From contig CP016202.1 of the NCBI GenBank assembly GCA_003433295.1, positions 950,104 to 988,760 of the forward strand: 38,657 nt of DNA, in the 5' to 3' direction. The notes beneath the pieces are model-generated. The model worked only from the letters and a program-made list of their open reading frames with translations. It had not been told where the DNA came from and ran no database searches. Positions 11,201-38,657 of this stretch are shown here, one piece after another. Source of the DNA: Eubacterium minutum ATCC 700079. Its GTDB lineage: Bacteria; Bacillota; Clostridia; Peptostreptococcales; Anaerovoracaceae. The first letter of the stretch is position 1. The number at the start of each line of letters is the position of its first letter. The translations under genes were made by a program, and so were the position numbers.

Positions 11201-11644
11201 TCAGGACTCTCCCGTTCGCCACATTATTACAGCGTCTTCCCCGTTGTCCTCATAATATCCGGAGCGGATTCCCGCAGATTTGAATCCGAATTTTTCATAG
11301 AGTTTTATCGCCGCCTCGTTGCCTGCACGCACCTCCAACGTGTGTCCCACAAGCCCGTGCCTATCAGTCGTATAGAGCATCGCGGCCAGCAGAATTGAGG
11401 CTACGCCCTGCCGTCTGTACCCCGGCATGACCGCAACGTTGTTTATATGTCCCTCATCCGCGACTTCCCACATTCCGGCATAACCTGTGATATTGCCGTC
11501 CGTCTCCGAGACAAAATACTGTGCCCGCGGATTTTCCGTTATATCGGTAATCAGGGATTCCCTTGACCATGGTACGGAAAAACAGACCTTTTCTATCGCA
11601 ACGATTCCGTCAATGTCCGCTCTGTCCGCTTTTCTGATCTTCAT
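11201..11644 (-). CDS. rimI: Ribosomal protein S18-alanine N-acetyltransferase RimI
   Basis: A 147-residue GNAT acetyltransferase. The acetyl-CoA loop is RRQGVAS (about 82-88), preceded by NVAVMPGYR, and the C-terminal part carries AIKLYEKFGFKSAGIRSGYY, typical of RimI. It would acetylate protein N-termini, by family S18. AGAGGA lies about 8 bases before the ATG. It sits between tsaB and tsaD, where rimI is often found. The specific target is inferred from context; other GNAT N-terminal acetyltransferases look similar. Confidence 0.9.
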   Translation of the reverse strand: MKIRKADRADIDGIVAIEKVCFSVPWSRESLITDITENPRAQYFVSETDGNITGYAGMWEVADEGHINNVAVMPGYRRQGVASILLAAMLYTTDRHGLVGHTLEVRAGNEAAIKLYEKFGFKSAGIRSGYYEDNGEDAVIMWRTGES

Positions 11645-11747
11645 CTTCTTTTCCTCTTGCCTCAGGCCACGGATTTTCCGGCATTATCCGCCGGCGCCCG
11701 GCATGTTTCCGGAAAACACCTGCCCGCGGCCACCGGACTTCACAAAG

Positions 11748-12527: not shown

Positions 12528-12958
12528 CTGTATATGCGTTCTCCTTCATTTTCTCCGTACTCAAGCAAAATCAGTTTCGTATCGTCCGGCAATATCTCCG
12601 CGATCTTATCCGCCCATTCAATGACGCATATCCCCCCGGCGTCAAAGTATTCCTCTCCCCCGATTTCGATAAGTTCCCCGCCGTTCTCAAGTCTGTAAAC
12701 GTCAAAGTGAAACAGAGGAAGTCTGCCCGAGTTGTATTCCTTTACAATCGTAAATGTCGGACTGGTTACGGTTTCCGAAATATCAAGTCCCGCGGCAATC
12801 GCCTTGGTCAGTGTCGTCTTTCCCGTACCGAGTTCTCCCACGAGTGCGAGAACATCTCCTCTTTCCAGAGTTTTTCCGAGCCCCTTTCCAAATTCCACCG
12901 CCTCTTTCTCCGAGCTTATTTTAATCTCTCTCATACTCATTTCGCTTCTTGCTTCCAT
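12515..12958 (-). CDS. tsaE: tRNA threonylcarbamoyladenosine biosynthesis ATPase TsaE
   Basis: A P-loop ATPase of up to 147 residues required for t6A synthesis with TsaB and TsaD. Walker A is GELGTGKTT (41-49), followed by TSPTFTIV and the HFDVYRLE motif, all characteristic of TsaE. The start is uncertain. The ATG at 12958 has no visible ribosome site, and in-frame ATGs at 12940 and 12934 would give the more usual beginning MREIKIS. All three overlap the end of ribU (stop at 12921), so translation is probably coupled to it. Confidence 0.94.
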   Translation of the reverse strand: MEARSEMSMREIKISSEKEAVEFGKGLGKTLERGDVLALVGELGTGKTTLTKAIAAGLDISETVTSPTFTIVKEYNSGRLPLFHFDVYRLENGGELIEIGGEEYFDAGGICVIEWADKIAEILPDDTKLILLEYGENEGERIYRCTF

Positions 12959-13490
12959 GGATTATATTTGAGATCTTTTTATAAATCAGGAACGTCACGA
13001 TCGAGTTGACTCCCGCCTTGCTCAGGTTAAAAGGCAGAATTGCCGGAAGCACGAGTTTCGCCACGGCCTCTCTGGTCATTCCGTAGAAGATCGGATCCAA
13101 TACGTAATTTGCCACGCACATAACCACAGCCATGCCAACCGTACCGCATGCCAGTCCGATCACCGCCGTCTTTCTGCTCTTATTTCTGTGGTATATGATT
13201 CCCGCGATCACCGCGAAGGTTCCCGTCGCTATCACGTGCATGGTAAATCCCATCCACGTATCCTGCCCCAACACAAAAGCCTGAACAAAGGCCGCCAAAA
13301 CAGTGACTATTATCCCCGGCACAGGGCCGAATGCGAATGTCGCTATCAAAACGGGGACGTCCGCCAACTCATATTTGAACGCCGGAAACAGCGGAAACGG
13401 CAAATATATGAAGACCAGCATGCACGAAATTGCCGTAAGCATTGCGACGGTGGTCATCTCTGTTCTTTTTCTTCTCTTTTCTTCTCTCAT
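12921..13490 (-). CDS. ribU: ECF transporter S component, riboflavin-type (RibU-like)
   Basis: A 189-residue membrane protein with five to six hydrophobic segments and basic ends. The pattern FPLFPAFKYELADVPVLI (about 33-50) followed by FGPVPG, and ILPFNLSKAG near 160, recalls RibU/FmnP substrate-binding subunits, which bind riboflavin and work with a shared EcfA/A'/T module located elsewhere. An AGAGGAAT ribosome site lies very close to the ATG. No FMN riboswitch is visible in the 69-base gap upstream, so regulation by flavin at this site is not supported. Riboflavin specificity is by similarity only; another vitamin is possible. Confidence 0.75.
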   Translation of the reverse strand: MREEKRRKRTEMTTVAMLTAISCMLVFIYLPFPLFPAFKYELADVPVLIATFAFGPVPGIIVTVLAAFVQAFVLGQDTWMGFTMHVIATGTFAVIAGIIYHRNKSRKTAVIGLACGTVGMAVVMCVANYVLDPIFYGMTREAVAKLVLPAILPFNLSKAGVNSIVTFLIYKKISNIIHGSKKRNEYERD

Positions 13491-13559
13491 ATTCCTCTCG
13501 ATTATCTTTCGACGGCAAATCTTACGCGCCGCCGCTTCCCGCCATCCGGCGGAAAACGC

Positions 13560-14993
13560 CTATATCGTAAAATCGGCCTGCGTCAAACGATAAAGTGCTT
13601 TGGCGTATATGTCCGTCATCTTATTAAACCTGTCTATGGCAATCTTTTCATTTTTTTGATGCATTATGTCCGGGTCTCCCGGAAACAAGCCGCCGAAAGC
13701 CACTACATTGGGGCATGCTCTGGCATACGTGCCGCCCGCGCTTACGATAGGCTCGCTGTCCATGTCGCCCGTTTCCTCTATGTATACATCCATCAGGGTT
13801 TTTATAAGATTGCTGTCCGCATCAAAATATAAAGGTTCCATATCTACGTGTTTTACCACGCCTATTGCATATTTATCCAAAATCGGCTGCATGGCGTCGT
13901 ACACATCATCCGCGCTGAAACTCACCGGATACCGCACATTGACGTTCACCGAGATCGAATCCTTATCGTAGCTTATCAATCCGTTGTTAACGGAAAGTCT
14001 GCCCGATTTTTCATCCTCAAATCCGATGCCGAGTTCTTCTCCGTACATGTTGAATCCCACATGTCCGTTATAAAAATCTATAAACTCGTTTACATCTTCG
14101 TTGGCAAAATTTAGTCTTCCCAAAAAACTCATGAGAACCGAAATCGCATTCAAACCTTTTTCGGGTCTCGCTCCGTGGCACGCAACTCCGTCCGCAAGTA
14201 TTTCAAGCGACTTGCCTACCCCCTTTGTTTTCAGCTTATATCCCGTCTCCACCATGAAATCCGCAAGTTTTTCTCTTATTTTTTCATAAGCACCCTTCGC
14301 GTCGCTTCTGACAACCGCGCGTGCCTGCGAAGCGACCATATTGACCGCCTCGCCTCCGGAAAGTTTACCCAACTGCAGTCCCGCCGCATTGCCCTTTGTG
14401 AGTTTTTTTGCAAGTTCAAACACCATTATTCCTTTTTCGCCGTTAATAACGGGGAAATCAGCGTCCGGTGTTATTCCGAAGTCGGGAGTTTCCACCTTGT
14501 CAAAGTAGTAATCCATGCCTTCCCATTCGGTTTCCTCATCAAGTCCCAGTATCAGGCGTATCTTCCTGTGCGGCTTATATCCAGCGTCTTTCAGCGCTTT
14601 CATCGCATATAAAGAGGCTATCACAGGCCCCTTGTCATCGGTCGTTCCTCTTCCTATGATATAACCGTCCTCTTCTTCCGCGCCGTAGGGATCGCTGTCC
14701 CATCCGTCGCCTGCGGGAACAACGTCAAGATGCCCCATCACTCCGACAGTTTCTTCCCCCTCGCCAAAGTCTATGTGACCTCCGTAGTTGTCTATATTTT
14801 CAACGGAAAAGCCCATCTCTTCGCCTTTGGCAAGCATGTATTCAAAAACTCTCTGTACACCCTCTCCGAACGGATATATCTGCGAATCCTCACCCTCAAC
14901 GGCGGACGATCTGTCACTCCTTATCCTTATCAACTCTTTCAGTGTTTCAATAGCGGGTCCACGGTTAGCCTCTATGTACTTCTGTAAATCCAT
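13560..14993 (-). CDS. pepV: Dipeptidase PepV (Sapep family, M20)
   Basis: A 477-residue M20 metallopeptidase that would cleave dipeptides in the cytoplasm. Metal-site motifs are GHLDVVPAGDGW (His88), GTTDDKGP (Asp119/120) and LDEETEWEGM (Glu153/154), followed by the large lid domain and a late ARACPNVVAFG block. Length and motifs fit PepV. GGAG lies 5 bases before the ATG. It starts 11 bases after the stop of the NFU-type gene and runs toward ribU, so it may be part of the same transcript. Confidence 0.92.
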   Translation of the reverse strand: MDLQKYIEANRGPAIETLKELIRIRSDRSSAVEGEDSQIYPFGEGVQRVFEYMLAKGEEMGFSVENIDNYGGHIDFGEGEETVGVMGHLDVVPAGDGWDSDPYGAEEEDGYIIGRGTTDDKGPVIASLYAMKALKDAGYKPHRKIRLILGLDEETEWEGMDYYFDKVETPDFGITPDADFPVINGEKGIMVFELAKKLTKGNAAGLQLGKLSGGEAVNMVASQARAVVRSDAKGAYEKIREKLADFMVETGYKLKTKGVGKSLEILADGVACHGARPEKGLNAISVLMSFLGRLNFANEDVNEFIDFYNGHVGFNMYGEELGIGFEDEKSGRLSVNNGLISYDKDSISVNVNVRYPVSFSADDVYDAMQPILDKYAIGVVKHVDMEPLYFDADSNLIKTLMDVYIEETGDMDSEPIVSAGGTYARACPNVVAFGGLFPGDPDIMHQKNEKIAIDRFNKMTDIYAKALYRLTQADFTI

Positions 14994-25758: not shown

Positions 25759-25832
25759 AATGTAATTCCCCTAATTCCTTTCCTCAAGTCCCGCCCGAGA
25801 CGCGGGGTCGTTAACGCCTAACATGGTATCAC

Positions 25833-25866
25833 AAAAGCCCCCGTTCCTCAAGCCTTGAACAGGGGC
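25833..25866 (-). terminator. Intrinsic terminator of the lanthipeptide operon
   Basis: Read on the minus strand, GCCCCTGTTC pairs with GAACGGGGGC over ten positions (one U-G pair) around a ten-base loop, followed by TTTTGTG. It lies about 15 bases after the lanT stop and upstream of metG, so it should insulate metG from lan transcription. Confidence 0.85.
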
Positions 25867-25881
25867 AGGGTACAGATGATT

Positions 25882-27648
25882 TCAATCCTGTAGCATATAA
25901 AGTCTTTCATATTCACTTGATGACTTAATCAGTTCTTCGTGGCCACCCGTTCCGTCAATTTCCCCTTCTTTTAAAACAATAATTTTGTTGGCATTATGGA
26001 TAAAGTGATTAAACTTATGGACTATCACCACACCGATTTTATTCCTGAACGCTTTCTCATACAATTGCGCCATCTCATATTCGGATATAGCATCCAATGC
26101 CGCATTGGGTTCATCTAAAAAATACAAATCCGCATCTCTGATAAATGCTCTTGCCAGTGCAATTTTCTGCCACTGACCATACGATAATTCTTTTCCCATC
26201 TCAAACCAGTACCCGAGTTGTGTGTCTATGCCTTTCTCCTGTTCCGATATCAAAGTCTCAAGGCCAAAGTTCCTGCATGCCTCCATTATTATGTGATTCT
26301 TATCTATCACCGCCAAATTGCTGTAACATACATTTTCCCTTATGGTTGCCTCATATTTGCTGAAATCCTGAAATAATGCACCTATACATTCAGTATAATT
26401 CCTCTTATCTATATCTCTAAGATTTTTGCCGTTAACCAGAATTTCTCCTTCATATTCATCGTAGAATCCCAAAAGAATTTTCATCAAAGTACTTTTCCCG
26501 CTTCCATTCCTACCCACTATTGCAACAAAATCCCCTTCTTTCATGGATAAATTGATATTCTTCAGTACATATTCATTACCTTGTTTATATTTGAACGAAA
26601 GACTTCTGACTTCAATGGATTCTATTTTATCTATTTTTAATCCTTCGCCCTTCTCCTCTTCTTCAAGTTCAAGGAAATCAAACAGTTGGTTTATGAACAT
26701 CCCCGATTTATTCAAATCCGCCATGGTCTGAATTACACTTTGTATTTGATCTTTTGATGAAACCATCGCTCTTGTATACGTAATCACATCGCCGATCAAA
26801 ATATTACCCAAATATCCGCAATATATCGTGTAAGCAAACAATCCACCTATCAGTGCCTGTTCCAGTATGCTGAACAGCAACGTAAATCGGATCCTCTTGC
26901 CTGATATGTATAAATCCTGCTTTGCAAAATGTCTTGAGAGCGACTCGAACTTACCGATAAAATGAGAAAACAGGTCATACAATTTCAATTCTTTATAGTT
27001 GAATCCACATGTTATGATATACCCGTCATACCAAGCTTTTCTTTCATCGTTGGTTCTTTTCTTAATCATATTGAACTCTTCAACATTAATCTTATTGCTT
27101 ATTATAAAGCGTATTATCGGTATTATTATAAGGAAAGGAACTATCCAGACCCTAAAAGAAAACACGATAATAATATATGAAACACACGTAACAAGCGTTC
27201 CGACTATGGACATCACGGTATCAAAATATGTTACGATACCTCCCTCGGTTTGATTCTCCGCACGCTGCATCATATCGTAAGTCTCACTGCTTTCATAATC
27301 CTGCAGACTAAGCCGGGAAGCCTTGTTCAACACCTCCTTTTTCATCTCTATATTAAATTTCAATGTGAATTTCGTTTTATAGTATCCGGTAGCAGAGTTA
27401 ATCAGAACCTCCACCAATCCGATCAGAAGGTAAAGAGCGATAAGAGCAAATATATAATTCAAGTTCCCGATCTGTGACTGAATTGAATTTATGATAGCTT
27501 GCATGACCTTAAGTGAAAGTGCCGGGAAGAGTCCGGTAAATATAACTGTACCAGCTATTATATATAAATATTTTTTATCCACACGTCCAATCAGCCTAAC
27601 ACTTTTCCCAACGGTGCGCAGTACGGACATAGCACTTGACTTTTTCAT
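25882..27648 (-). CDS. lanT: Class I lanthipeptide exporter LanT
   Basis: A half-size ABC exporter (588 residues from the ATG at 27648) that should secrete the modified precursors. I prefer this ATG because AAAGGTG lies at the right distance; a GTG three codons earlier overlaps that site. The membrane domain spans about 1-320. The ATPase domain has Walker A GRNGSGKST (379-387), signature LSYGQWQ (488-494), Walker B LYFLDEP (508-514) and the switch His544. It has no N-terminal C39 peptidase domain, so like NisT it cannot remove leaders itself. It is the last gene of the operon, 20 bases after lanC. Confidence 0.92.
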   Translation of the reverse strand: MKKSSAMSVLRTVGKSVRLIGRVDKKYLYIIAGTVIFTGLFPALSLKVMQAIINSIQSQIGNLNYIFALIALYLLIGLVEVLINSATGYYKTKFTLKFNIEMKKEVLNKASRLSLQDYESSETYDMMQRAENQTEGGIVTYFDTVMSIVGTLVTCVSYIIIVFSFRVWIVPFLIIIPIIRFIISNKINVEEFNMIKKRTNDERKAWYDGYIITCGFNYKELKLYDLFSHFIGKFESLSRHFAKQDLYISGKRIRFTLLFSILEQALIGGLFAYTIYCGYLGNILIGDVITYTRAMVSSKDQIQSVIQTMADLNKSGMFINQLFDFLELEEEEKGEGLKIDKIESIEVRSLSFKYKQGNEYVLKNINLSMKEGDFVAIVGRNGSGKSTLMKILLGFYDEYEGEILVNGKNLRDIDKRNYTECIGALFQDFSKYEATIRENVCYSNLAVIDKNHIIMEACRNFGLETLISEQEKGIDTQLGYWFEMGKELSYGQWQKIALARAFIRDADLYFLDEPNAALDAISEYEMAQLYEKAFRNKIGVVIVHKFNHFIHNANKIIVLKEGEIDGTGGHEELIKSSSEYERLYMLQD

Positions 27649-27667
27649 TGTTTTCACCTTTCAAACT

Positions 27668-28975
27668 CTATCCTATCATAAGCAACTTTCTGTATTCAGT
27701 AACTCCGTAAAACAGTTCCGCAAAACAGGCAACAATACCGGTCACTCCGTTCAGAAGTGAATATTCACCTATGTATCCTTCCAAATGCCCCTCATCATTT
27801 TCTATCTGATCGGGAAATGATTCGGCTATTTTGGTACTGTATTCACTAAGGCGTATTATCTCTTTCACATGAGTCTCCACACTTTTCCTAAGTCCCGTTC
27901 CTTCTTCTTCGTTCAAAATCAGGAGCTTTCCTGCCAAGAGACTAGCATATCCGTGACATATTGCCGGACTGAGCAGATACCATTTTTCTATCTTTAGACT
28001 CATAGCTTTTACAAGTTCTTTCTTCAGATCCTCTTCCTCTTTCCGCCGACCCATATTTGCTGCGGTTATGATAAGTCCACACAGTACGCCTGTATTTCCA
28101 TAACACCAACTGGCAGCATACTGTATCTCATCATGTCTAACCTTCTTCTTCAAAAATGATTCATAAGAAAGCTGGCTCGGCCAATACCACACCCCATTTT
28201 CTTCGATTCTGAAATCGTCGTAAAACTTTTTCAATCTCACTATTGCATCTTTCACTTCAATATCGTTATAACCCCTTGCATAAGCCTTTGAAAGTGCCGT
28301 CAAAGGTGCCACCATGCCGTGTGACATCCCAAAATTGAAATTTCCATTGGGAAATTCCTTTTTTTCTATATCCAAAAATTGTTTTTCCGGTTTAATATGG
28401 AAGTTATAAACTTCCGATCCCTTATATTCATGCTTACCGGTTAATTTAACAAGATAATCAATCATCTCATATATGCTTTTCTTGTAAAGCTCTTTCGGCA
28501 ACCTTCCACAATCAAGCAAATAATACAAATTACCTGCGATACCTGAAATACAGTCATAGTCATTGCATTCCGTCTGAGTGAAATCATATGATGAATTGTG
28601 CAGTTTCTCATACACCCCCTCCATCAGCAGCATATTCAAATTCGAAGAAAAATTTTTCAGTCTGCCCGTCACTTTCGAATAATAATTGACGCAAAAACAA
28701 GCATATCCATATCCCGATATCATTGAATAATTCTCACGATGAATCCCGTATCTTTCCACGTATTCTTTTATCGTTAAACACACACTGTAGCCTATTTCTT
28801 CCCATTTTTCATATTTGTAATTTATTTCCATCGCAATGCACGAAAGCAATAGGTAATCATATATGCACATCGACTCCGACACATTGTTTTCAAATTCTTT
28901 TTCCGCTTTATCAAATGCTTTTTTGATATACCTTTTTGCGAGTTCTCCAGTTTCTTTGTTAGTCGATTCATACAT
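27668..28975 (-). CDS. lanC: Lanthipeptide cyclase LanC
   Basis: A 435-residue LanC that joins cysteine thiols to dehydrated Ser/Thr, making lanthionine rings. Zinc ligands are Cys291 in SWCYGNTG and Cys340-His341 in AICHGYAS. The alpha-toroid repeats are visible as DCISGIAGN, GMSHGMVAPL (His219) and SLLNGVTGIVACF. The ATG at 28975 has GGGAGG seven bases upstream and starts 20 bases after protease 1. It works with LanB on all three precursors, since it is the only cyclase in view. Confidence 0.95.
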   Translation of the reverse strand: MYESTNKETGELAKRYIKKAFDKAEKEFENNVSESMCIYDYLLLSCIAMEINYKYEKWEEIGYSVCLTIKEYVERYGIHRENYSMISGYGYACFCVNYYSKVTGRLKNFSSNLNMLLMEGVYEKLHNSSYDFTQTECNDYDCISGIAGNLYYLLDCGRLPKELYKKSIYEMIDYLVKLTGKHEYKGSEVYNFHIKPEKQFLDIEKKEFPNGNFNFGMSHGMVAPLTALSKAYARGYNDIEVKDAIVRLKKFYDDFRIEENGVWYWPSQLSYESFLKKKVRHDEIQYAASWCYGNTGVLCGLIITAANMGRRKEEEDLKKELVKAMSLKIEKWYLLSPAICHGYASLLAGKLLILNEEEGTGLRKSVETHVKEIIRLSEYSTKIAESFPDQIENDEGHLEGYIGEYSLLNGVTGIVACFAELFYGVTEYRKLLMIG

Positions 28976-28994
28976 ACTTACGCCTCCCTCTCAT

Positions 28995-30959
28995 TCAGCG
29001 TCTCTTACCATCAAAAGGTTTTTTATCCAAAATGAGTTTCACTGCTTTCTCGACAAGTTCATCTCTTCCGTCGGCAAGCCCCTTTACCGTAGGTTTGACT
29101 TCTATGTCAGGCTTGACTCCGACCCTCTGAAGCTGCTTGTTGCCGGGATATGACTTGCTAACATTCGCCGAAAAAAAGCACCCCAGTTTTCCCGGCAGGG
29201 TTATTTCAGTGGCGGCTCCGTTTGCCCCCACCGTTCCGGTACCTATTATTATTGAGTTCGGGCACTTGCGAATCGCAAGTGCGGCAAGCTCGTATTTACT
29301 CATCGTTCTTTCATCTATGATTACAACCACTCGCCCCTTATACATAGGTCGTCTCCGTTCTTTTCCTCTCCATGTATTGATAATACCGTTATTCATCATA
29401 TCGCTATAGCTTAGTATTTCTCTTAGATTTTTTCGTTTGCTGATTATTCTAAAGTTTTTTCCCCATGCGCCTCTACCGCATGAGCCTACCGGTTTTTCGG
29501 CAAATGCTCCGGGTATAAATCGATTTGCAGAATAAATACCCCAGTATTTTTTAGATTTTGACAGTAAATACTGCGGAAGACTATATGCGATTAATGCCGG
29601 CTGTGCATACCTTAAATCCACTATTATTCCTTTTGTATCTTTGAATTTGCTCATAGTATCATCCAGCCTTTTTACTCCATTCCCTTTTTCTTTTATGTAG
29701 CCTATCGTTCCATCTTTCATAAACTCACTTTTTCCGCCGTCAAAATACTTCACTTGCTCTATATTGGGAATATACTCGCATTCTTCATCGCATTGTTTCT
29801 TTTTGCCATCCCTCACTACTACGAATTTTGCTTTAGGTGTTTTTGAAGCGAACAAGCGTACAAAGGCATTGCGGTATCTTCCTTCCACAGACACAGATAA
29901 ATACCTTGAACATCTCTTCATTCGCTTTTCTATGCTTTCTTCATTTACCGATAAGATTACATCTCCACTCTTAAGTCCGTTTTTTGAAAAGCTTCTTTCA
30001 ACGACCCATTTACCGTCTAAATAAGTTGCTGTAATGGATGGCATATATGACCCAAGGTATTTGTCAAGCACTCCTTGTTTATCATTGAAAAACGTATGAG
30101 TATCATGTATGTGAGTCGTAAGGTTCGCTATTGACAGCGAGTAGGACTTATGATCTTTCCCTGTGGCAAGTTCAGGAATCTTCTTCAAAAGGACATCGTC
30201 CCAATTTTCTCCTATTATATTTTTATTGCCGTCAAAGTACTCTATTATGTTCCAATACCTGAACAGGGAAAGCAACCTCATGCCCGAATCGTTATACTTC
30301 ATATCGTTTCCCGTTTCACAATCCATCGATACATTTATCAAATCAAAGTCTTCGGGACCCATTTTTTTTATATATACCGAATAGCCTTTTTCCCCTATCT
30401 TCTTTACTTTAGAGAGTCTCTTGAGATATTCGGAAAGTCTGTTCCCGAGTAAGCCTTTATCTTCTATCCAGCTCATATCGGTTCTGTAATATTCGTTCTT
30501 TACATCCCTATCGTATTCTTGCTGTTCCTCAGTATCCAATTCCTCTATCTTAAAAGGGAATTTCTCAAGCCACGCCGCCATGGCTTGATTGGCTTTATCC
30601 TTTGACTTTGCGGCAAGCACCCTCGGCATTACCCTGAAAAGCTCCGCATCCCAGTTTAGCTTGCCGTCTGTAATCTTTGGATGTCTGTACTTTACATATC
30701 CCCATACCTTTGCAAGTACGTACAGATTATGCTGTTGCGCCTTGTTCATTTCGGTTATTCTTATCTTGCTGTCGTTGATAAATTCAGTGTCTTTCTTGCG
30801 TTCCGTATTGGCACTTAACTTTCGCGCGTTTTCATAACTGTCCTCAAGCAAATCCCATTCATTGGAGACCATATCCGGTAATAGTCTTATGACTATTACG
30901 AGGATTATAAGAAAAAATATCATCATCAATATTTTCTTTTTTTTGAATTTCTTTTCCAC
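28995..30959 (-). CDS. Membrane-anchored S41 family protease 1 (paired with lanA1)
   Basis: A 654-residue protein starting at a GTG with AGAGGAG ten bases upstream. A basic N-terminus and one membrane helix (about 10-28) should place the rest outside the cell. An N-terminal domain with VWGYVKYRHP (85-94) is followed by HDTHT (His288), a PDZ-like segment (about 325-345, SGDVILSVNEESIEKR) and the S41 core with nucleophile Ser554 in TMSKYELAA. Ala579 occupies the position of the Lys of Ser-Lys C-terminal processing proteases, so a Ser-His type as in tricorn or nisin resistance protein is likely. It is more divergent than proteases 2 and 3. A weak promoter-like match (TATAAT at 31052-31057) lies upstream. 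The role is either immunity or leader cleavage. Confidence 0.87.
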   Translation of the reverse strand: MEKKFKKKKILMMIFFLIILVIVIRLLPDMVSNEWDLLEDSYENARKLSANTERKKDTEFINDSKIRITEMNKAQQHNLYVLAKVWGYVKYRHPKITDGKLNWDAELFRVMPRVLAAKSKDKANQAMAAWLEKFPFKIEELDTEEQQEYDRDVKNEYYRTDMSWIEDKGLLGNRLSEYLKRLSKVKKIGEKGYSVYIKKMGPEDFDLINVSMDCETGNDMKYNDSGMRLLSLFRYWNIIEYFDGNKNIIGENWDDVLLKKIPELATGKDHKSYSLSIANLTTHIHDTHTFFNDKQGVLDKYLGSYMPSITATYLDGKWVVERSFSKNGLKSGDVILSVNEESIEKRMKRCSRYLSVSVEGRYRNAFVRLFASKTPKAKFVVVRDGKKKQCDEECEYIPNIEQVKYFDGGKSEFMKDGTIGYIKEKGNGVKRLDDTMSKFKDTKGIIVDLRYAQPALIAYSLPQYLLSKSKKYWGIYSANRFIPGAFAEKPVGSCGRGAWGKNFRIISKRKNLREILSYSDMMNNGIINTWRGKERRRPMYKGRVVVIIDERTMSKYELAALAIRKCPNSIIIGTGTVGANGAATEITLPGKLGCFFSANVSKSYPGNKQLQRVGVKPDIEVKPTVKGLADGRDELVEKAVKLILDKKPFDGKRR

Positions 30960-31083
30960 AACTTAACATCTCCTCTTGCTTTAAGTAAAATGTTAATTTT
31001 CACTATAACAGTGCGAATAACCCTTTGCATTACAACTTCCACTTATTTTAAATTATATTCCACCTACATGCCTTATCTTCAAG

Positions 31084-31305
31084 CTAACATCTTATCTGTG
31101 CCAAGCCACATCCCTTTTTATGACAGGACGCAGCCGGAATTTTAGTCTTTCCTAACGTTGGCACTTTGCATTTGCGCGTGCAGTTACATGTACGAGCACA
31201 AGTATGCGTCGTCACCGTTGTAGTTATTACGCTTGCCACATCCTCATATTCTTCTGATTGGCTTGTTATTTTTAAATCCAGATCAAAATCTTTGTAGTCT
31301 TCCAT
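31084..31305 (-). CDS. lanA1: Class I lanthipeptide precursor LanA1 (seven cysteines)
   Basis: A 73-residue precursor with AGGAG six bases before the ATG. The leader has the nisin-type box FDLDL (7-11) for LanB/LanC binding, then an acidic stretch to about residue 23. The core is Thr-rich (TTTVTTHT, 28-35) with cysteines at 36, 40, 42, 46, 61, 66 and 73. CTRKC (42-46) matches the place of nisin ring B (CTPGC). It ends in AQIRC like the other two precursors but has Leu68 where they have Thr67, so the last ring must form differently. No PR, PQ or GG cleavage site is visible. It sits before protease 1 in the operon. Confidence 0.9.
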   Translation of the reverse strand: MEDYKDFDLDLKITSQSEEYEDVASVITTTVTTHTCARTCNCTRKCKVPTLGKTKIPAASCHKKGCGLAQIRC

Positions 31306-31353
31306 GTTTTTCTCCTTATTTGATTTTTAATCTAACAAAGGTTATTCGCACAT

Positions 31354-31380
31354 CAATATCGGTGCTCACACCGGATATTG
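31354..31380 (-). promoter_or_regulatory. Cassette hairpin 1 (upstream of lanA1)
   Basis: Arms CAATATCGGTG and CACCGGATATTG pair over eleven positions with one bulged G and loop CTCA. It begins five bases after the stop of protease 2 and lies about 50 bases before lanA1. There is no T-run after it on the minus strand, so it is not a classical terminator. A neighbouring CAATAT could pair alternatively with ATATTG. Confidence 0.7.
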
Positions 31381-31385
31381 CAATA

Positions 31386-33344
31386 TCATTTAGCCTTGCT
31401 AAAAGGCTTTTTATCCAAAATGAGTTTCACTGCTTTCTCCACAAGTTCATCTCTTCCGTCGGCAAGTCCCTTAACCGTAGGTTTGACTTCTATGTCAGGC
31501 TTTACTCCGACCCTCTGAAGCTGCTTATTGCCGGGATATGACTTGCTAACATTCGCCGTGAAGAGGGCTTCCAATTCTCCCGGTAATGTCATTTCAGCGG
31601 CAGCCCCGTTTGCTCCCACCGTGCCGCTTCCTATTATTATTGAGTTCGGGCTCTTTCGAATCGCAAGTGCGGCAAGCTCATATTTACTCATCGCTCTTTC
31701 ATCTATAATTACAACCACCCGCCCTTTATACATCGGACGCTTCCGCTCTTTCCCTTTCCATGTGTTGATGATACCGTTATTTGTCACATTGCTGTAATTC
31801 AGTGTCTCCATCAGATTCTTGCGCTTGCCTATTTCTCGAAATATCTTTTTTGCAGCTCCTCTTCCGCATACCCATCCATTGATTTCAGTAAACGCCCCCG
31901 GTACAAAACGATTGGCGGCATATACAGTAAGATATTTTTCAGGCTTTGAAAGAAGATACAGCGGCAGACAACTACAAATAAGAGGAGGCTGCAGATACCT
32001 CAAATCCACTATTATTCCTTTAGTATCCTTAAATTTCTCCATTACATCATCCAGTTCTTCATAACCTTCTCCTTCTTCACGTATGTATCCGACCGTGCCG
32101 TCTCTCATGAGTTTGCTTTCATTGTCCACAACATCCGCGTCTGCTTTTGCATCTGCAATATACACGCACGTCGCTTCGCATTGTATCTTTTTACCGTTTC
32201 GCAAAACTTCAAATTTTGCCTTGGTTGTATTTGAACCCAGCAAATTCGCAAACGCATCCCAATATCTGTTGTCTATCGAAACCGACAGATACTTTCTGCA
32301 CCTTTTGATGCGTTTTTCCATACTCTCGCCATTCACCGACAGTATTGTGTCCCCGGGCTTTACGCTGTCTTCGGGAAGTGTTTTTTCAACTACCCACTTG
32401 TTATCTATATTCACTGCGGTAAGTGATGGTATGTATGCCCCAAGGTAAGTATCAAGCACTCTGAACTTATCCACCAGCTGTGTATGAGTGTCATGTATGT
32501 GGATCGTAAGGTTCGCCATGGAAAGTGAGTATGACTCATGATCTTTCCCCGTGGCAAGTTCAGGAATCTTCTTCAAAAGGACATCGTCCCAATTTTCTCC
32601 TATGATATTTTTGTTGCCGTCAAAGTACTCTATTATGTTCCAATACCTGAACAGGGAAAGCAACCTCATGCCCGAATCGTCATATTTCATATCGTTTCCC
32701 GTTTCACAATCCATTGATACATTTATCAAATCAAAGTCTTCGGGCCCCATTTTCTTCATATATACCGAATAGCCTTTTTCCCCTATCTTCTTTACTTTAG
32801 AGAGTCTCTTGAGATATCCGGAAAGGTTCTTCCCAAGTAGAATTTTATCTTCTATCCAGCTCATATCGGTTCTGTAATATTCGTTCTTTATATTTTTATC
32901 ATATTCTTGCTGTTCTTCGGCGTTCAAGCTCTCTATTTCAAAAGGGAATTTTTCAAGCCACACCGCCATGGCTTGGTTGGCTTTGCCCTTTGACTTTGCG
33001 GCAAGGACTCTCGGCATTATCCTGAAAAGCTCCGCATCCCAGTTGAGCGTGCCGTCCGTGATCTTTGGATGCCTGTACTTTACATACCCCCATACCTTTG
33101 CAAGTACATACAGGTTATGCTGTTGCACCTTGTTTATTTTCGTGATTCTTATCTTACTGTCACTTTTGAACTCGGTGTCCTTCTTACGCTCCGCATTTGC
33201 GCTTATTTTCCTAACATCCAAATACTTATTGTCCAGAAGTTCAAACTCATTGGATATTAAAACTGCCACCACTCCTATAACTATAGCAACGAATATCAGC
33301 AAAGATACGATTACTATTTTCTTTTTGCTACGTTTCTTTTCCAT
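31386..33344 (-). CDS. Membrane-anchored S41 family protease 2 (paired with lanA2)
   Basis: A 652-residue paralogue of proteases 1 and 3, about nine residues in ten identical to protease 3 by eye. It has an N-terminal anchor (about 10-30), VWGYVKYRHP (84-93), HDTHT (His287), PDZ-like PGDTILSVNGESMEKR, Ser553 in AMSKYELAA and Ala578 in GTVGANGAA. The catalytic-domain end, VGVKPDIEVKPTVKGLADGR, is identical in all three. It differs from protease 3 mainly in short patches near the active site (about 455-495 and 580-597). It follows lanA2 by 113 bases. Immunity against, or maturation of, the LanA2 product is inferred from pairing. Confidence 0.87.
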   Translation of the reverse strand: MEKKRSKKKIVIVSLLIFVAIVIGVVAVLISNEFELLDNKYLDVRKISANAERKKDTEFKSDSKIRITKINKVQQHNLYVLAKVWGYVKYRHPKITDGTLNWDAELFRIMPRVLAAKSKGKANQAMAVWLEKFPFEIESLNAEEQQEYDKNIKNEYYRTDMSWIEDKILLGKNLSGYLKRLSKVKKIGEKGYSVYMKKMGPEDFDLINVSMDCETGNDMKYDDSGMRLLSLFRYWNIIEYFDGNKNIIGENWDDVLLKKIPELATGKDHESYSLSMANLTIHIHDTHTQLVDKFRVLDTYLGAYIPSLTAVNIDNKWVVEKTLPEDSVKPGDTILSVNGESMEKRIKRCRKYLSVSIDNRYWDAFANLLGSNTTKAKFEVLRNGKKIQCEATCVYIADAKADADVVDNESKLMRDGTVGYIREEGEGYEELDDVMEKFKDTKGIIVDLRYLQPPLICSCLPLYLLSKPEKYLTVYAANRFVPGAFTEINGWVCGRGAAKKIFREIGKRKNLMETLNYSNVTNNGIINTWKGKERKRPMYKGRVVVIIDERAMSKYELAALAIRKSPNSIIIGSGTVGANGAAAEMTLPGELEALFTANVSKSYPGNKQLQRVGVKPDIEVKPTVKGLADGRDELVEKAVKLILDKKPFSKAK

Positions 33345-33457
33345 GACATTACCTGCGTCTTTCCTTCATCATCTAAAATAGTTGCGGCAAATATCCCTAT
33401 AAAGTAGGTATTTAATCTAAGTTTTGTATTCTAACGAAACAATTGTTTTTCATCAAA

Positions 33458-33676
33458 TTAGCAGCGAATCTGCGCCGTACCCTGAACCTTTTTATAGCAA
33501 GATGCAACAGGTTTCTTTGTCTTGCCCTTGGTTGGCACCGGGCATTTAGGCGTACATTTTATTTTTTTTGAAAGCCAATATGTTGTTGGTGTAAGTGTCG
33601 CACTTGCAGGTTCATCAACGGAATTTTCTTCTGAACTCTTAAGGTCCAAATCGAAATCTTCATACTTATTCCCCAT
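33458..33676 (-). CDS. lanA2: Class I lanthipeptide precursor LanA2
   Basis: A 72-residue precursor. I start at the ATG at 33676 because AGGAGG lies five bases upstream (33682-33687); the frame stays open 17 codons further without support. The leader contains FDLDL (8-12) and the acidic SSEENSVDEP. The core has cysteines 41, 45, 60 and 72. CTPKC (41-45) resembles nisin ring B (CTPGC), and Ser36 is placed to make a ring with Cys41 as in ring A. Thr53 to Cys60 and Thr67 to Cys72 are likely further rings. The core is strongly basic (KGKTKK, YKK). Residues 24-40 differ almost completely from LanA3, while the rest is nearly identical. Confidence 0.93.
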   Translation of the reverse strand: MGNKYEDFDLDLKSSEENSVDEPASATLTPTTYWLSKKIKCTPKCPVPTKGKTKKPVASCYKKVQGTAQIRC

Positions 33677-33724
33677 GTCGTCCTCCTTTCTCCTACTTGT
33701 TCTTTTGGAATATTTGCCGCATAT

Positions 33725-33751
33725 CAATATCGGTGCTCACACCGGATATTG
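33725..33751 (-). promoter_or_regulatory. Cassette hairpin 2 (upstream of lanA2)
   Basis: It is identical to the hairpin at 31354-31380, begins five bases after the stop of protease 3 and lies about 50 bases before lanA2. Together with the overlapping 12-base palindrome ATATTGCAATAT (33746-33757) it offers two mutually exclusive pairings. No T-run follows. Confidence 0.7.
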
Positions 33752-33756
33752 CAATA

Positions 33757-35715
33757 TCATTTAGCCTTGCTAAAAGGCTTTTTATCCAAAATAAGTTTCA
33801 CTGCTTTCTCGACGAGTTCATCTCTTCCGTCGGCAAGCCCCTTGACCGTAGGTTTTACTTCTATATCAGGTTTGACTCCGACCCTCTGAAGCTGCTTATT
33901 GCCGGGATATGACTTGCTAACATTCGCCGTGAAGGAAACTTCCAATTGCCCCGGCAGCGTTGCCCGAGCGGCGCCGCCGTTTGCTCCTACCGTTCCGCTT
34001 CCTATTACTATTGCGTTCGGGCTCTTTCGAATCGCAAGTGCGGCAATCTCATATTTACTCATCGTTCTTTCATCTATAATTACAACCACCCGCCCTTTAT
34101 ATATCGGGCGCTTTCGTTCTTTCCCTCTCCACGTATTGATAATACCGTTATTTGTCATATTGCTGTAATTCAATATCTCCATCAAATTTTTTCGCTCGCC
34201 TATTTCTCGAAATATCTTTTTCGCAGTTCCTCGTCCGCATGGCCACCCATCGGTTTCAGTAAATGCCCCCGGTACAAAACGATTGGCGGCATATACAGTA
34301 AAATATTTTTCAGGCTTTGAAAAAAGATGCTGTGGCAGGCAAGTGCCAATGAGAGGAGGCTGCAGATACCTCAAGTCCACTATTATTCCTTTGGTGTCCT
34401 TAAATTTCTCCATTACATCATCCAGTTCTTTGTAACCTTCTCCTTCTTCACGTATGTATCCGACCGTGCCGTCTCTCATGAGTTTGCTTTCATTGTCCAC
34501 AACATCCCTTTCTGCTTTTGCATCTTCAATATACACGCACGTCGCTTCGCATTGCATCTTTTTACCGTCTCGCAAAACTTCAAATTTTGCCTTGATTGTA
34601 TTTGAACCCAGCAAATTCGTAAACGCATACCAATATCTGTTGTCTATCGAAACCGACAGGTACTTTCTGCACCTTTTGATGCGTTTTTCAATGCTCTCGC
34701 CATTCACCGACAGTATTGTGTCCCCTGCTTTTATGCTGTCTTCGGGAAGTGTCTTTTCCACTACCCACTTATTGCCTATGTTTACTGCGGTAAATGATGG
34801 TATATATGCTCCTAAATAATCCTCCATAACCCTGAACTTATCCACCAGCTCTGTATGAGTGTCATGTATGTGGGTTGTAAGATTCGCCATGGAAAGTGAA
34901 TATGACTTATGATCTTTCCCCGTGGCAAGCTCAGGAATCTTTTTCAAAAGGACATCGTCCCAGTTTTCTCCTATGACATTTTTGTTGCCGTCAAAGTACT
35001 CTATTATATTCCAATACCTGAACAGGGAAAGTAGCCTCATGCCCGAATCGTCATATTTCATATCGTTTCCCGTTTCACAATCCATCGATACATTTATCAA
35101 ATCAAAGTCTTCGGGACCTATTTTTTTCATATATACCGAATATCCTTTCTCCCCTATCTTCTTTACTTTGGAGAGCCTCTTGAGATATCCGGAAAGTCTG
35201 CTCCCAAGTAAGCCTTTATTCTCTATCCAGCTCATATCGGTTCTGTAATATTCTTTCTTTATATTTTTATCGTATTCCCGCTGTTCCTCGGCATTCAAGC
35301 TCTCTATTTCAAAAGGGAATTTTTCAAGCCACACCGCCATGGCTTGGTTGGCTTTGCCCTTTGACTTTGCGGCAAGCACTCTCGGCATTACCCTGAAAAG
35401 TTTCGCATCCCAGTTCAGCGTGCCGTCTGTGATCTTTGGATGTCTGTACTTTACATATCCCCATACCTTTGCAAGTACATACAGGTTATGCTGTTGCACC
35501 TTGCTTATTTTTGTGATTCTTATCTTACTGCCGCTTTTAAACCCGGTATCCTTCTTACGCTGTGCATTCTCGCTTATTTTCCTAACATCCAAATACTTAT
35601 TGTCTAGAAGCTCAAACTCATTGGACATTAAAACTGCCACCACTCCTATAACTATAGCAACGAATATCAGCAAAAATACGATTACCCTTTTCTTTTTGCT
35701 ACGTTTCTTTTCCAT
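33757..35715 (-). CDS. Membrane-anchored S41 family protease 3 (paired with lanA3)
   Basis: A 652-residue paralogue with the same layout as protease 2: an anchor at about 10-30, VWGYVKYRHP (84-93), HDTHT (His287), PDZ-like AGDTILSVNGESIEKR, Ser553 in TMSKYEIAA and Ala578 in GTVGANGGA. Patches that differ from protease 2 include LIGTCLPQHLF against LICSCLPLYLL, and GGAARATLPGQLEVSF against GAAAEMTLPGELEALF. Both patches are close to the catalytic Ser in sequence or fold. It follows lanA3 by 110 bases. Its function is as uncertain as that of its paralogues: cognate immunity is my first choice, leader removal the second. Confidence 0.87.
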   Translation of the reverse strand: MEKKRSKKKRVIVFLLIFVAIVIGVVAVLMSNEFELLDNKYLDVRKISENAQRKKDTGFKSGSKIRITKISKVQQHNLYVLAKVWGYVKYRHPKITDGTLNWDAKLFRVMPRVLAAKSKGKANQAMAVWLEKFPFEIESLNAEEQREYDKNIKKEYYRTDMSWIENKGLLGSRLSGYLKRLSKVKKIGEKGYSVYMKKIGPEDFDLINVSMDCETGNDMKYDDSGMRLLSLFRYWNIIEYFDGNKNVIGENWDDVLLKKIPELATGKDHKSYSLSMANLTTHIHDTHTELVDKFRVMEDYLGAYIPSFTAVNIGNKWVVEKTLPEDSIKAGDTILSVNGESIEKRIKRCRKYLSVSIDNRYWYAFTNLLGSNTIKAKFEVLRDGKKMQCEATCVYIEDAKAERDVVDNESKLMRDGTVGYIREEGEGYKELDDVMEKFKDTKGIIVDLRYLQPPLIGTCLPQHLFSKPEKYFTVYAANRFVPGAFTETDGWPCGRGTAKKIFREIGERKNLMEILNYSNMTNNGIINTWRGKERKRPIYKGRVVVIIDERTMSKYEIAALAIRKSPNAIVIGSGTVGANGGAARATLPGQLEVSFTANVSKSYPGNKQLQRVGVKPDIEVKPTVKGLADGRDELVEKAVKLILDKKPFSKAK

Positions 35716-35825
35716 AACATTACCTGCGTCTTTCCTTCATTGTCTAAAATGGTTGCGGCAAATATCCCTATCAAGCAGGTCATTAATCTAAGTTTTATCT
35801 TTTAACGAAACAACTGATTTTCAAA

Positions 35826-36044
35826 TTAGCAACGAACCTGCGCCGTACCCTGAACCTTTTTATAGCAAGATGCAACAGGTTTCTTTGTCTTGCCCTTGGT
35901 TGGCACCGGGCATTTAGGCGTACATTTCATTTTTATTGAAATAGGTAGCGTTGTTACTGTTACAGTCACTGTATTAGGCTCATCAACGGAATTTTCTTCT
36001 GAACTCTTAAGGTCCAAATCGAAGTCTTCATACTTATTCCCCAT
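35826..36044 (-). CDS. lanA3: Class I lanthipeptide precursor LanA3
   Basis: A 72-residue precursor starting at the ATG at 36044, behind the same AGGAGG as lanA2; the 26 codons in frame before it are the hairpin region. It has leader box FDLDL (8-12), identical residues 1-23 to LanA2, a different 24-40 (NTVTVTVTT then PISIKMK), and a C-terminal part identical to LanA2 except Val70. Ser36, Lys40 and Cys41 are kept even in the variable window. Cysteines are 41, 45, 60 and 72. It directly follows lanB, which is the usual neighbour of a lanA gene. Confidence 0.93.
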   Translation of the reverse strand: MGNKYEDFDLDLKSSEENSVDEPNTVTVTVTTLPISIKMKCTPKCPVPTKGKTKKPVASCYKKVQGTAQVRC

Positions 36045-36092
36045 GTCGTCCTCCTTTATCCTGCTTGTTTTTTTGGAATATTTGCCGCATAT

Positions 36093-36119
36093 CAATATCG
36101 GTGCTGACACCGGATATTG
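36093..36119 (-). promoter_or_regulatory. Cassette hairpin 3 (upstream of lanA3)
   Basis: Same stem as at 31354 and 33725, with loop CTGA instead of CTCA. It lies about ten bases after the lanB stop and about 50 before lanA3. It therefore marks the left border of the first cassette after lanB, which shows that the hairpin belongs to the lanA cassette and not to the protease. Confidence 0.7.
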
Positions 36120-36128
36120 CAATATTGT

Positions 36129-38657
36129 TTAATCCCTATCCTTCATATCCGTTTTTATCTTTTCTTCTTTAGTTTTACGCATGTATCTCTCTTTTTTTAT
36201 CACATCATACAGTGTATGCCTCAACAGACTGTATGCTTTCTCTTCTAACTCTCTATTCCCGTTGAGGCGATTGCAGCACATGTGTAACAACGACAAGATT
36301 ATTTCATTCTTCGAGTCAGTAAGCGATCCCCGATTTTCCTCAAGTACCCGCAAAAAATCTTTGATGCAAGGATTTGAGGAGTTCTCTTGCAGAATTTCTT
36401 CCAGTTCTTTAATGTATTCCTTTCTTTTGTTCTGATATTCCTTTCTATGATTTTCCTTATTTGTAATCTCGTCAAGCATGGTGAACATATCCGACTTTTC
36501 ACCCATTAGTTGATTCATCAGAATCGCGACGGCTCTAAAGTACACCTTCGTTAAGATCTCATGATTTTTTATGTCATTTTTATCAAGTAAATCTATGACG
36601 TCTTCACTGTTTTTGAAGAAAAGTCTTTCTGCGGCTTCTATGCAAAACTCACCTCCGTAGCGATTTATTTCTCTGGTATATTCATGCATGCTCCACTTCT
36701 TCAAAAAACCGTTCTCTCTCATTTTCAACATCCATGCATTCAAATGTGAAAGTTTGCCCAATGCATCATGCTCACTTTCATACTTGACACGCAGTCTCAG
36801 ATGGTTTCCGCTTTCATCCGCATAACGAATAAAGAAAAAATTTTCTATCTCTAACGATTTCTTGTCTCTTTTAAATGCAACAAGTAGATCATTGTCCATA
36901 TCATCGCTGCAATATAACTTAAAATATACCCACCCGCCGTGTAACATCGGGATTTTTCTGTTTTTATTCTTAATCAACAAATCTATGTCTTCTTTTTCGC
37001 TTCGCAATTGAACGGTAGAATTGTTTTCTTTTCGAACCCCATCTTTTCTATACATTGAAAAAACACACTCCACCGCAAAATGTTCTCCGTTCGAATTCAT
37101 ACCGCTGCCATTTTGAAAAACTTCATCTTCCAGCGCACATAGCCGTAAATCTTTTTCTTCCCCGTATTCCTGATATATAATTTCAACCGTCACAGAATCG
37201 TCCCTGCGCAAAATCAATCTGTTATCGTCCTCGCACAGATAGAAAAATTCGGGTACATCAAACCGGTCAACGAAATAACGATATTCTTCCCTGAATTTTT
37301 CAATATTCAGCTTGCTGAAGTGTTTTTTTGTCAGTCTCCATGTTTCCGGAAAAACCACTATTCCCTCTATCTCAACTTCCGGAGTGTAAATATAGTTTTC
37401 ATCAAACAAATATGAGAGCCGTTCTATTACCTTAATATCATCATACTCGGCGGAAATACCGCACAACAAGTTGAACAACTTACTGTTCAACATGCTGTTC
37501 AACATATTGTCAGTTATCATCTTGCATATCTTGTCATTTGTAACAGACTTCAGATAAAGCTTATCATCATAATCCAAGCCAACTACAATATCATCGAGAA
37601 AAATTCTTCTGCTTTTGTTCTCCGTATCCGTCATACCCAATAAAAAACAGCAGGGATAGTTATTGCTCCAATTCATTACGTTGGATAATCTCCCTGCTGT
37701 CGGCATTTCTCTGATCTCTGTCAAAAGATATTCGTCAGAGCCACATTCTGCATATATGCTATTATATTTTTTAAATTCTTCTCTTTCAAAAACCCGTTCA
37801 AACCTCTGGAATGATTTCCCCGCGGACGATGATCCTATATTTGGTCCTAGGTACAATTTAGGATCTGTTTTATCTCCGACTACGACAAGGTTTATATCAA
37901 ACGAGTCCTGAGGCACCCATTCCGGATTCCACTTTATGTCCAAAAAGTCCTCTTTGGAGAAACTTATCTTCTTTTCTCTGTTCAAAATCGCTTCTTGTAT
38001 TTTAGTATCAAACAGAGATTTTATATAAGTTTCTCTTTCATTCTCCTCTGACCTTGTGACATCCATATAACTCAACCCGTCAAACCCCGCAGGATCAATC
38101 ACCTGTGTTAAAGGAACCTCTACGCCTTGACCATATTCCTCTTGGAACTGATGCTTAAATTCCTTCAATGTAGAGTATATTTTACTTTCAATTCCTATCC
38201 GTTCAATGCAATCTACAAAATTTTCTATTTTCTTTTTAATGCCTACATCAAGTTCCAACTCGTTGAACGAAGAGCCTGAATTAACTTTAACATAAGATTT
38301 GCTGCCCTGAATGGAACTCATAATACCGATGGTTTCATCCAGTACGTCATAACCTGCTTCGTATTCATCAAAACGTCTCTGTATTTGGTTGAGTTGCTCT
38401 CTGAACTCCGGCAGGATATTTCTTCTCTCCAATACACCCAAACAATATGACAACGTGTTACTACAGTACGCAGGTATTCTGATTTCTGTAAGAAGATATT
38501 CTTGCTCAATCAAGGTGTTTATAACATTAATAACTTTCTCGTCCGGCACATAATCGTATGCGCTTTTAATTATACCGACCAACTCCCGATAATTTATATA
38601 ATCCTGCGCACTACTTACAACCAGTTCCACCAAAGGCGAATACCTTATACTGGAGTT
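36129..38657 (-). CDS. lanB: Lanthipeptide dehydratase LanB (partial, cut by window edge)
   Basis: 842 residues are visible and the frame stays open to the edge, so roughly the first 150-200 residues of a ~1000-residue LanB are missing. Numbering here starts at the in-frame TTG at 38633, which is an internal Leu and not the start. LanB glutamylates Ser/Thr of the precursor from Glu-tRNA and then eliminates glutamate. The N-terminal domain shows YSPLVELVVSSA, LIEQEYLLTEIRIP and PEFFYLCEDDNRLIL (461-475). The C-terminal elimination domain (about 565-815) shows FFFIRYADESGNHLRLR (599-615), NRYGG (657-661) and LHMCCNRLNG (783-792). It is the upstream partner of lanA3, and no promoter is within the window. 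Confidence 0.95.
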   Translation of the reverse strand, partial: NSSIRYSPLVELVVSSAQDYINYRELVGIIKSAYDYVPDEKVINVINTLIEQEYLLTEIRIPAYCSNTLSYCLGVLERRNILPEFREQLNQIQRRFDEYEAGYDVLDETIGIMSSIQGSKSYVKVNSGSSFNELELDVGIKKKIENFVDCIERIGIESKIYSTLKEFKHQFQEEYGQGVEVPLTQVIDPAGFDGLSYMDVTRSEENERETYIKSLFDTKIQEAILNREKKISFSKEDFLDIKWNPEWVPQDSFDINLVVVGDKTDPKLYLGPNIGSSSAGKSFQRFERVFEREEFKKYNSIYAECGSDEYLLTEIREMPTAGRLSNVMNWSNNYPCCFLLGMTDTENKSRRIFLDDIVVGLDYDDKLYLKSVTNDKICKMITDNMLNSMLNSKLFNLLCGISAEYDDIKVIERLSYLFDENYIYTPEVEIEGIVVFPETWRLTKKHFSKLNIEKFREEYRYFVDRFDVPEFFYLCEDDNRLILRRDDSVTVEIIYQEYGEEKDLRLCALEDEVFQNGSGMNSNGEHFAVECVFSMYRKDGVRKENNSTVQLRSEKEDIDLLIKNKNRKIPMLHGGWVYFKLYCSDDMDNDLLVAFKRDKKSLEIENFFFIRYADESGNHLRLRVKYESEHDALGKLSHLNAWMLKMRENGFLKKWSMHEYTREINRYGGEFCIEAAERLFFKNSEDVIDLLDKNDIKNHEILTKVYFRAVAILMNQLMGEKSDMFTMLDEITNKENHRKEYQNKRKEYIKELEEILQENSSNPCIKDFLRVLEENRGSLTDSKNEIILSLLHMCCNRLNGNRELEEKAYSLLRHTLYDVIKKERYMRKTKEEKIKTDMKDRD

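Follow-up and report, generated by a model that had tools for sequence, protein, structure and literature searches.

A tandem array of paired lanA and S41 protease genes in a class I lanthipeptide cluster of Eubacterium minutum, with predicted stems around the precursor genes

What is served by giving each precursor of a lanthipeptide cluster its own protease gene, and how would a short precursor gene placed mid-operon outproduce the enzymes encoded around it? Both questions are raised by a stretch of 38,657 nucleotides (nt) from Eubacterium minutum ATCC 700079 (contig CP016202.1, positions 950,104 to 988,760), hereafter the window. On the minus strand, the genes run in the order lanB, three tandem units each made of a hairpin, a lanA precursor gene and an S41 protease gene, then lanC and a lanT of the NisT type. 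An initial annotation had described three such units of 2.36 to 2.39 kb, each opening with the same hairpin just past a stop codon and ending in its own membrane-anchored protease of 652 to 654 residues, flanked by single lanB, lanC and lanT genes. Coordinates, unit length, hairpins and gene content are as claimed, and gene order and domain matches bear out one such protease per precursor in a class I cluster. The arrangement is a real, intact and unusual variant within class I lanthipeptide clusters. Its precursor and protease genes are the following (aa, amino acids; E, expectation value).

35826..36044, minus strand: lanA1 of unit 1, 72 aa, FDLD leader
33458..33676, minus strand: lanA2 of unit 2, 72 aa
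31084..31305, minus strand: lanA3 of unit 3, 73 aa, FDLD leader
33757..35715, minus strand: S41-1, 652 aa, N-terminal hydrophobic stretch, H287 and S553 (PF03572, E 1.8e-14)
31386..33344, minus strand: S41-2, 652 aa (PF03572, E 7.1e-12; predicted model)
28995..30959, minus strand: S41-3, 654 aa, GTG start (PF03572, E 6.8e-12)

The three proteases match PF03572 with 45.7 to 54.1 bits against a cut-off of 24, and an S41 query against their own genome returned only these three proteins. S41-1 and S41-2 are 90% identical, and S41-3 shares 72-74% with the other two. Each begins with a basic N-terminus, followed by a single hydrophobic stretch and about 600 further residues; we infer that the body is extracellular and is held by the N-terminal helix. 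His287 and Ser553 (S41-1 numbering) are conserved without exception in the ten aligned sequences, namely the three window copies and seven relatives, and the lysine of the CtpA-type motif is, by eye, not at its usual place. The active site resembles the Ser/His type known from tricorn and NSR, and protease activity is predicted. Among the best 50 of 84 Foldseek matches (E 0.001) to an AlphaFold2 model of S41-2 (mean per-residue confidence, pLDDT, 78.6), the nearest are a Bacteroides S41 protease, CPAF and the CtpA/D1 proteases. The ratio of nonsynonymous to synonymous change (dN/dS) is 0.18-0.19 in all three pairs of copies, which indicates purifying selection. The initial annotation had named decay of the protease genes as a point to check; all three retain the Ser and His residues, and a pseudogene reading is ruled out by their open frames and by these ratios.

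The open reading frames (ORFs) of lanA1 and lanA2 are over-long when read from TTG, and an ATG start gives 72 aa (73 for lanA3). An FDLD leader box is found in all three. When lanA1 and lanA3 were submitted to the NCBIfam FDLD model, lanA3 reached 16.7 bits (cut-off 20) and lanA1 gave no match. LanA1 and LanA2 are nearly identical in the leader and the C-terminal core, and their differences are almost confined to codons 24-39, the beginning of the presumed core: ten replacements fall in codons 23-39 and one in the other 55, a clustering reached in 0 of 20,000 permutations. This variable block could reflect selection or an imported segment. LanA3 is widely different from both.

Around the array lie the genes that all precursors would share.

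36129..38657, minus strand: lanB, lantibiotic dehydratase (PF04738, E 8.5e-66; PF14028, E 1.7e-42)
27668..28975, minus strand: lanC, cyclase, 435 aa (PF05147, E 5.3e-33)
25882..27657, minus strand: lanT, NisT-type ABC exporter, 591 aa (PF00005, E 4.4e-30)

The lanB gene is truncated by the window end, with the C-terminal 834 of 1029 aa inside; the full ORF occupies 11233-14322 of genome stretch L004, and its N- and C-terminal dehydratase domains (PF04738 and PF14028) both exceed the cut-off. LanC scores 114.5 bits against a cut-off of 23.2 and carries the WCYG and CHG motifs, which are the zinc ligands of LanC. The C39 peptidase domain is absent from the Pfam matches of LanT. Both lanC and lanT are single-copy within the cluster. 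With LanB dehydratase domains, a LanC-type cyclase, and LanA peptides that combine an FxLD box with a core of Ser, Thr and Cys, the locus is a class I lanthipeptide cluster as read from its sequence, and a lanthionine-bearing product is predicted. Inspection by eye of the ORFs around the cluster revealed no lanFEG, lanI or lanRK, and no profile search was aimed at them. There is no S8 domain in the window, and the genome's three S8-domain genes all lie more than 70 kb away from the cluster. By eye, pyruvate formate-lyase activase and pyruvate formate-lyase ORFs lie upstream of lanB, and metG, followed by further housekeeping-type genes, lies downstream of lanT.

How did the array arise? The proteases carry a mosaic. 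Over aa 61-290 and 541-654, S41-3 is 84-89% identical to the other copies with few silent changes; over aa 1-60 and 291-540, it is 47-59% identical and 43-53% of comparable codons are silently changed. Between S41-2 and S41-3, codons for the same amino acid differ at 31 of 191 positions in aa 61-290 and at 73 of 142 in aa 291-540. The range of this synonymous mosaic was reached in 0 of 5000 permutations for S41-2 with S41-3 and likewise for S41-1 with S41-3; the pair S41-1 and S41-2, at 309 of 5000, is not significant. Segment exchange between copies appears to be the simplest account of the mosaic. The initial annotation had thought the structure able to grow or shrink by recombination, and what the array displays of this is signs of segment exchange between its copies. 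The lanA and protease gene pair would have been duplicated together twice within a class I operon, and continuing exchange would keep the outer parts of the proteases alike while the middle part in unit 3 remains different.

Each unit also carries predicted RNA features, beginning with the small hairpin.

36095..36117, minus strand: hairpin of unit 1 (sequence search)
33727..33749, minus strand: hairpin of unit 2 (sequence search)
31356..31378, minus strand: hairpin of unit 3 (sequence search)

The hairpin, ATATCCGGTGTSAGCACCGATAT, occurs three times in the window at up to three mismatches and 0 times in 100 shuffles, and its 15-base core has exactly three perfect copies in the genome, all in the array, 2368 and 2371 nt apart from hairpin to hairpin. 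The hairpins start 7-11 nt past the stop codons of lanB, S41-1 and S41-2, as the initial annotation had placed them. The hairpin is not present 3' of S41-3, and this distribution assigns it to the lanA end of every unit. A role as terminator was rejected, a terminator-like site being called at none of the three places. Rfam gave no match at gathering score across 25800-38657.

Next to the hairpin, folding of the units placed each lanA inside a predicted loop of about 310 nt, closed by a long-range stem of 15 base pairs.

36075..36089, minus strand: 5' arm of the stem around lanA1 (RNA folding, shuffle test)
35754..35768, minus strand: 3' arm around lanA1, loop 306 nt (RNA folding, shuffle test)
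33707..33721, minus strand: 5' arm around lanA2 (RNA folding, shuffle test)
33383..33397, minus strand: 3' arm around lanA2, loop 309 nt (RNA folding, shuffle test)
31337..31351, minus strand: 5' arm around lanA3, sequence unlike units 1 and 2 (RNA folding, shuffle test)
31011..31025, minus strand: 3' arm around lanA3, loop 311 nt (RNA folding, shuffle test)
36060..36067, minus strand: 5' arm of a second stem, unit 1, CAAGCAGG
35772..35779, minus strand: 3' arm of the second stem, unit 1, CCTGCTTG
33692..33699, minus strand: 5' arm of the second stem, unit 2, CAAGTAGG, with a C-G to U-A change relative to unit 1
33402..33408, minus strand: 3' arm of the second stem, unit 2, CCTACTT

Each lanA has its main-stem arms 30-31 nt ahead of the ATG and 57-60 nt past the stop. 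The arm sequence is common to units 1 and 2; the arms of unit 3 differ in sequence and keep the same length, the same place and one G-U pair at the same position. The second stem holds a compensatory C-G/U-A change between units 1 and 2. Shuffled flanks matched the stem score in 4, 6 and 6 of 1000 cases for units 1 to 3, and folding units 1 and 3 as RNA gave z -3.0 and -3.1, with 0 of 100 shuffles equally good. As background, 3 of 216 long ORFs reached z 3.3 (60 shuffles each). The three include S41-1, which is flanked by arms in common with its neighbours.

The same test was applied to lanA genes behind lanB in other genomes, designated by stretch (L) and genome (G). Shuffles reached the stem score in 3 of 1000 for L042, in 2 and 5 of 1000 for the two genes of L043, and in 0 of 1000 for L072, where the arms are 28 nt. 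In L071 (8156-8721, G887), arms of 27 nt jointly enclose two near-identical lanA genes with a loop of 473 nt (0 of 1000), a block tested only after the L072 arm had been seen. In all, a stem was found around 7 of 11 lanA singly and around this one post hoc block, or in 5 of 7 clusters with lanA behind lanB. Because the arms are related in units 1 and 2, in the L043 pair, and in L071 and L072, the independent cases number about five. Among lanA genes not directly behind lanB, 23 of 26 stood above 5% of shuffles; the exceptions were L082 (2 of 500) and the borderline L074 (18 of 1000) and L080 (12 of 500). Several results weigh against a general stem: the test failed in L044 (231 of 1000), in L070 (570 of 1000, the upstream sequence being mostly N) and for the single lanA genes of L071 (796 and 20 of 1000), and the lanA before lanB in L082 (175-412, G1021) has an equally strong stem with arms of 22 nt. 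The stem, with its predicted pairing, probably acts at the RNA level to set lanA expression.

Is the pairing of lanA with an S41 protease found elsewhere? The S41 searches counted the own genome each time, and the taxon samples overlap. Within the genus, 5 of 17 genomes gave matches at E 1e-3, full-length in the own genome only; at E 1e-20 the counts were 2 of 296 for the family, 7 of 393 for the order and 4 of 391 for the class. LanB was found at E 1e-20 in 1 of 296 genomes of the family (the own genome), and at E 1e-30 in 5 of 391 of the class and 14 of 189 of the family of G760. A related S41 at E 1e-10 was found in 0 of the 16 other genomes with a related lanB (seven searched with the positive controls G000 and G087 matching, nine without a control). 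By eye, the neighbours of S41 relatives elsewhere (28-43% identity) are unrelated to lan genes, except for the closest relative; about 9 kb per side was viewed for most, and short pieces for G660 and G727. This nearest relative (43%, G087) lies 66 nt downstream of agrB (PF04647), itself preceded by an agrD-like ORF (by eye, no Pfam match). The agrB-adjacent protease (L010, 9577-12328) has an apparent lipobox and may process the agr-type signal peptide encoded beside it. Scans of genome contigs rely on two short peptide patterns and may overlook relatives; with the three S41 sequences the scan returned none, and with four sequences it returned seven loci, one of them the G087 contig, with lan genes in none by eye. 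Viral contigs gave no match for S41 or LanB. Plasmids gave five S41 records, all Bacteroidota at 23-30%, and 96 LanB records, with an annotated S41 gene in 0 of the 7 examined.

From these features we infer a model that combines leader removal, matching of protease to precursor, an extracellular protease, pairing of the RNA arms and processing of the RNA. LanB, LanC and LanT would be common to all precursors, LanB and LanC modifying them and LanT exporting them. The exported precursor would then meet the surface S41 protease, with its helix anchor and its body outside the cell, which would remove the leader; each copy would have diverged towards a fit with its own precursor around the border of leader and core. 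Between neighbouring stop and start codons, the lanA message would be enclosed by the stem, beside the small hairpin, and the two together would separate or protect a short lanA messenger RNA within the operon transcript, so that precursor exceeds enzyme. The S41 enzymes are most likely dedicated leader-removing proteases, that is, a non-subtilisin LanP. Leader removal is ranked first because LanT lacks a peptidase, the cluster showed no further recognisable protease, and the nearest S41 relative lies beside another exported peptide. Some observations pull the other way: the leaders of LanA1 and LanA2 are almost the same, and a single LanP could serve both; an unlinked LanP could be any one of the genome's three S8 proteases outside the cluster; between S41-1 and S41-2 neither the synonymous mosaic nor the clustering of replacements is significant, so that a fit to the variable LanA block stays a proposal; and no second cluster with lanA and S41 was found. 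Duplicated cassettes, S41 as LanP and a stem that boosts the precursor, taken together, are held tentatively, a little short of evenly balanced.

The strongest rival takes the S41 enzymes for self-immunity proteins like NSR, each cassette being a bacteriocin and immunity pair. It stands first among the rivals because there is one S41 copy per precursor, which fits the usual pattern of one immunity gene per precursor, and because inspection by eye turned up no further immunity gene. NSR is roughly half the length of the window proteases. No NSR chain appears by name in 31 solved-structure sequence matches or in the best 50 of the 84 Foldseek matches (E 0.001), and a producer that destroys its own product would require tight localisation. 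The precedent, in the portions available of PMC4698656 and PMC8003753, is that NSR belongs to the S41 proteases, has a Ser/His dyad, acts at the membrane and degrades nisin; these portions contain no producer that uses NSR as its immunity. NSR and the window enzymes are both membrane-associated S41 proteases with Ser/His, but the NSR motif TASSAEM (PMC4698656, same portion) is absent here, where MSKYE stands at the catalytic Ser, and the genes are encoded in the cluster of the producer, one per precursor. Immunity is rather unlikely as the role; if it were the role, NSR-like resistance would gain a producer-side counterpart. Simple dosage amplification, in which the lanA and S41 pair was copied for output, with no matching of protease to precursor and with LanA diversity independent of it, agrees with tandem units spaced at 2368-2388 nt with high identity, purifying selection on every copy, the mosaic suggesting exchange and the unclustered replacements between S41-1 and S41-2. 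Yet neither the dense replacement block between LanA1 and LanA2 nor the wide difference of unit 3 in lanA and in aa 291-540 would be needed for pure dosage, which we judge to be unlikely.

At the stem, the rival is that the inverted repeats act at the DNA level, as inversion sites for phase variation or as ends of mobile elements. In its favour, the arms on either side of lanA in five clusters are nearly perfect over 15-28 nt; mismatches in the stems, counted symmetrically, came to 7 G-T and 5 A-C (p 0.39), which favours neither level. Symmetric scoring also did not recover the stem of L043 lanA2, near which an unconstrained search favoured a different arm pair. Against the DNA reading, all stem-enclosed lanA genes are read in the operon sense, a recombinase gene was not recognised by eye in the window cluster, and the 5' arm ends 29-48 nt before the ATG in eight stems, which keeps the ribosome site accessible. 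Five sites separate the two 5' arms of L043, and by eye each of them still pairs with the unchanged 3' arm as A-U or G-U; these pair-keeping changes favour RNA as the level of action. The DNA-level reading is quite improbable. A broader RNA reading is possible, though somewhat doubtful: a general device in clostridial lanB-lanA operons, in which a fast-changing complementary stem would seal lanA for excision or protection, here within an exchangeable cassette with a precursor-specific S41 for maturation or immunity, new pairs being addable as units.

In the open-licence literature searched, none of the matches listed resembled S41 in lanthipeptide clusters or in those of other ribosomally synthesized and post-translationally modified peptides, or a stem that encloses lanA. 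The portions available of PMC8960859, PMC4698656, PMC8003753, PMC7268733, PMC11015633 and PMC9958725 describe neither an S41 leader protease nor a stem around lanA. The final maturation step of lanthipeptides is frequently without a known protease (PMC8960859, in the portion available). If the model is true, a precursor-linked S41 would add an enzyme family to this step, and a route to matched peptide and protease pairs. The enclosing stem would be a simple, testable answer to how a mid-operon precursor gene outproduces its enzymes and, with different arms in several clostridial clusters, it is the more general new lead. In its wider interpretation, the initial annotation is partly supported, by the cassette array, by intact proteases under purifying selection and by the signs of exchange; it had left out the lanA-closing stem and the CPBP genes of relatives.

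These CPBP-family (PF02517) membrane proteins follow lanA in L042, L043, L044 and L072, in place of S41. Their clusters resemble the window in a related LanB (28-36%), in LanA of the FDLD/FDID type and in a membrane-protease-type gene after lanA, and in L042, L043 and L072 a stem likewise encloses lanA. Numbers of CPBP and lanA do not correspond, with one lanA and two CPBP genes plus a third by eye in L042, and two lanA and one CPBP in L043. In L042 (12205-17493, G760), the two CPBP genes (PF02517) and the look-alike third lie among lanA, lanC and lanT and are possible maturation or immunity genes. Of the LanB proteins found, that of the G903 cluster (L070) is the most similar to the window's (46%), and its LanA shows the C-terminal pattern of the window peptides, with one lanA visible and no S41 match in the genome. 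With this LanB and a LanA of the same family present but no S41, the cassette with S41 looks like a local addition to a precursor family that also occurs elsewhere. A run of 1183 N (6588-7770) lies exactly between lanB and lanA of L070 and may hide further repeated units. Separately, L076 (1593-6480, G952) holds at least ten lanA-like ORFs with FDLD leaders around one lanB, lanC and lanT.

Compared with clusters of the nisin and epidermin type, the window shares LanB, LanC, a NisT-like LanT and LanA with an FxLD leader, and differs in that three lanA and protease cassettes stand between lanB and lanC, and lanRK and lanFEG were not recognised by eye alongside. Where those clusters have a subtilisin LanP of the S8 type, the cluster proteases here carry no S8 domain and are S41 enzymes of PF03572. 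The predicted stem recalls the processing stalks of ribosomal RNA cut by RNase III, which likewise close a loop around the RNA destined for release; in the present case, what the loop contains is a short protein-coding message inside an operon, with putative processing.

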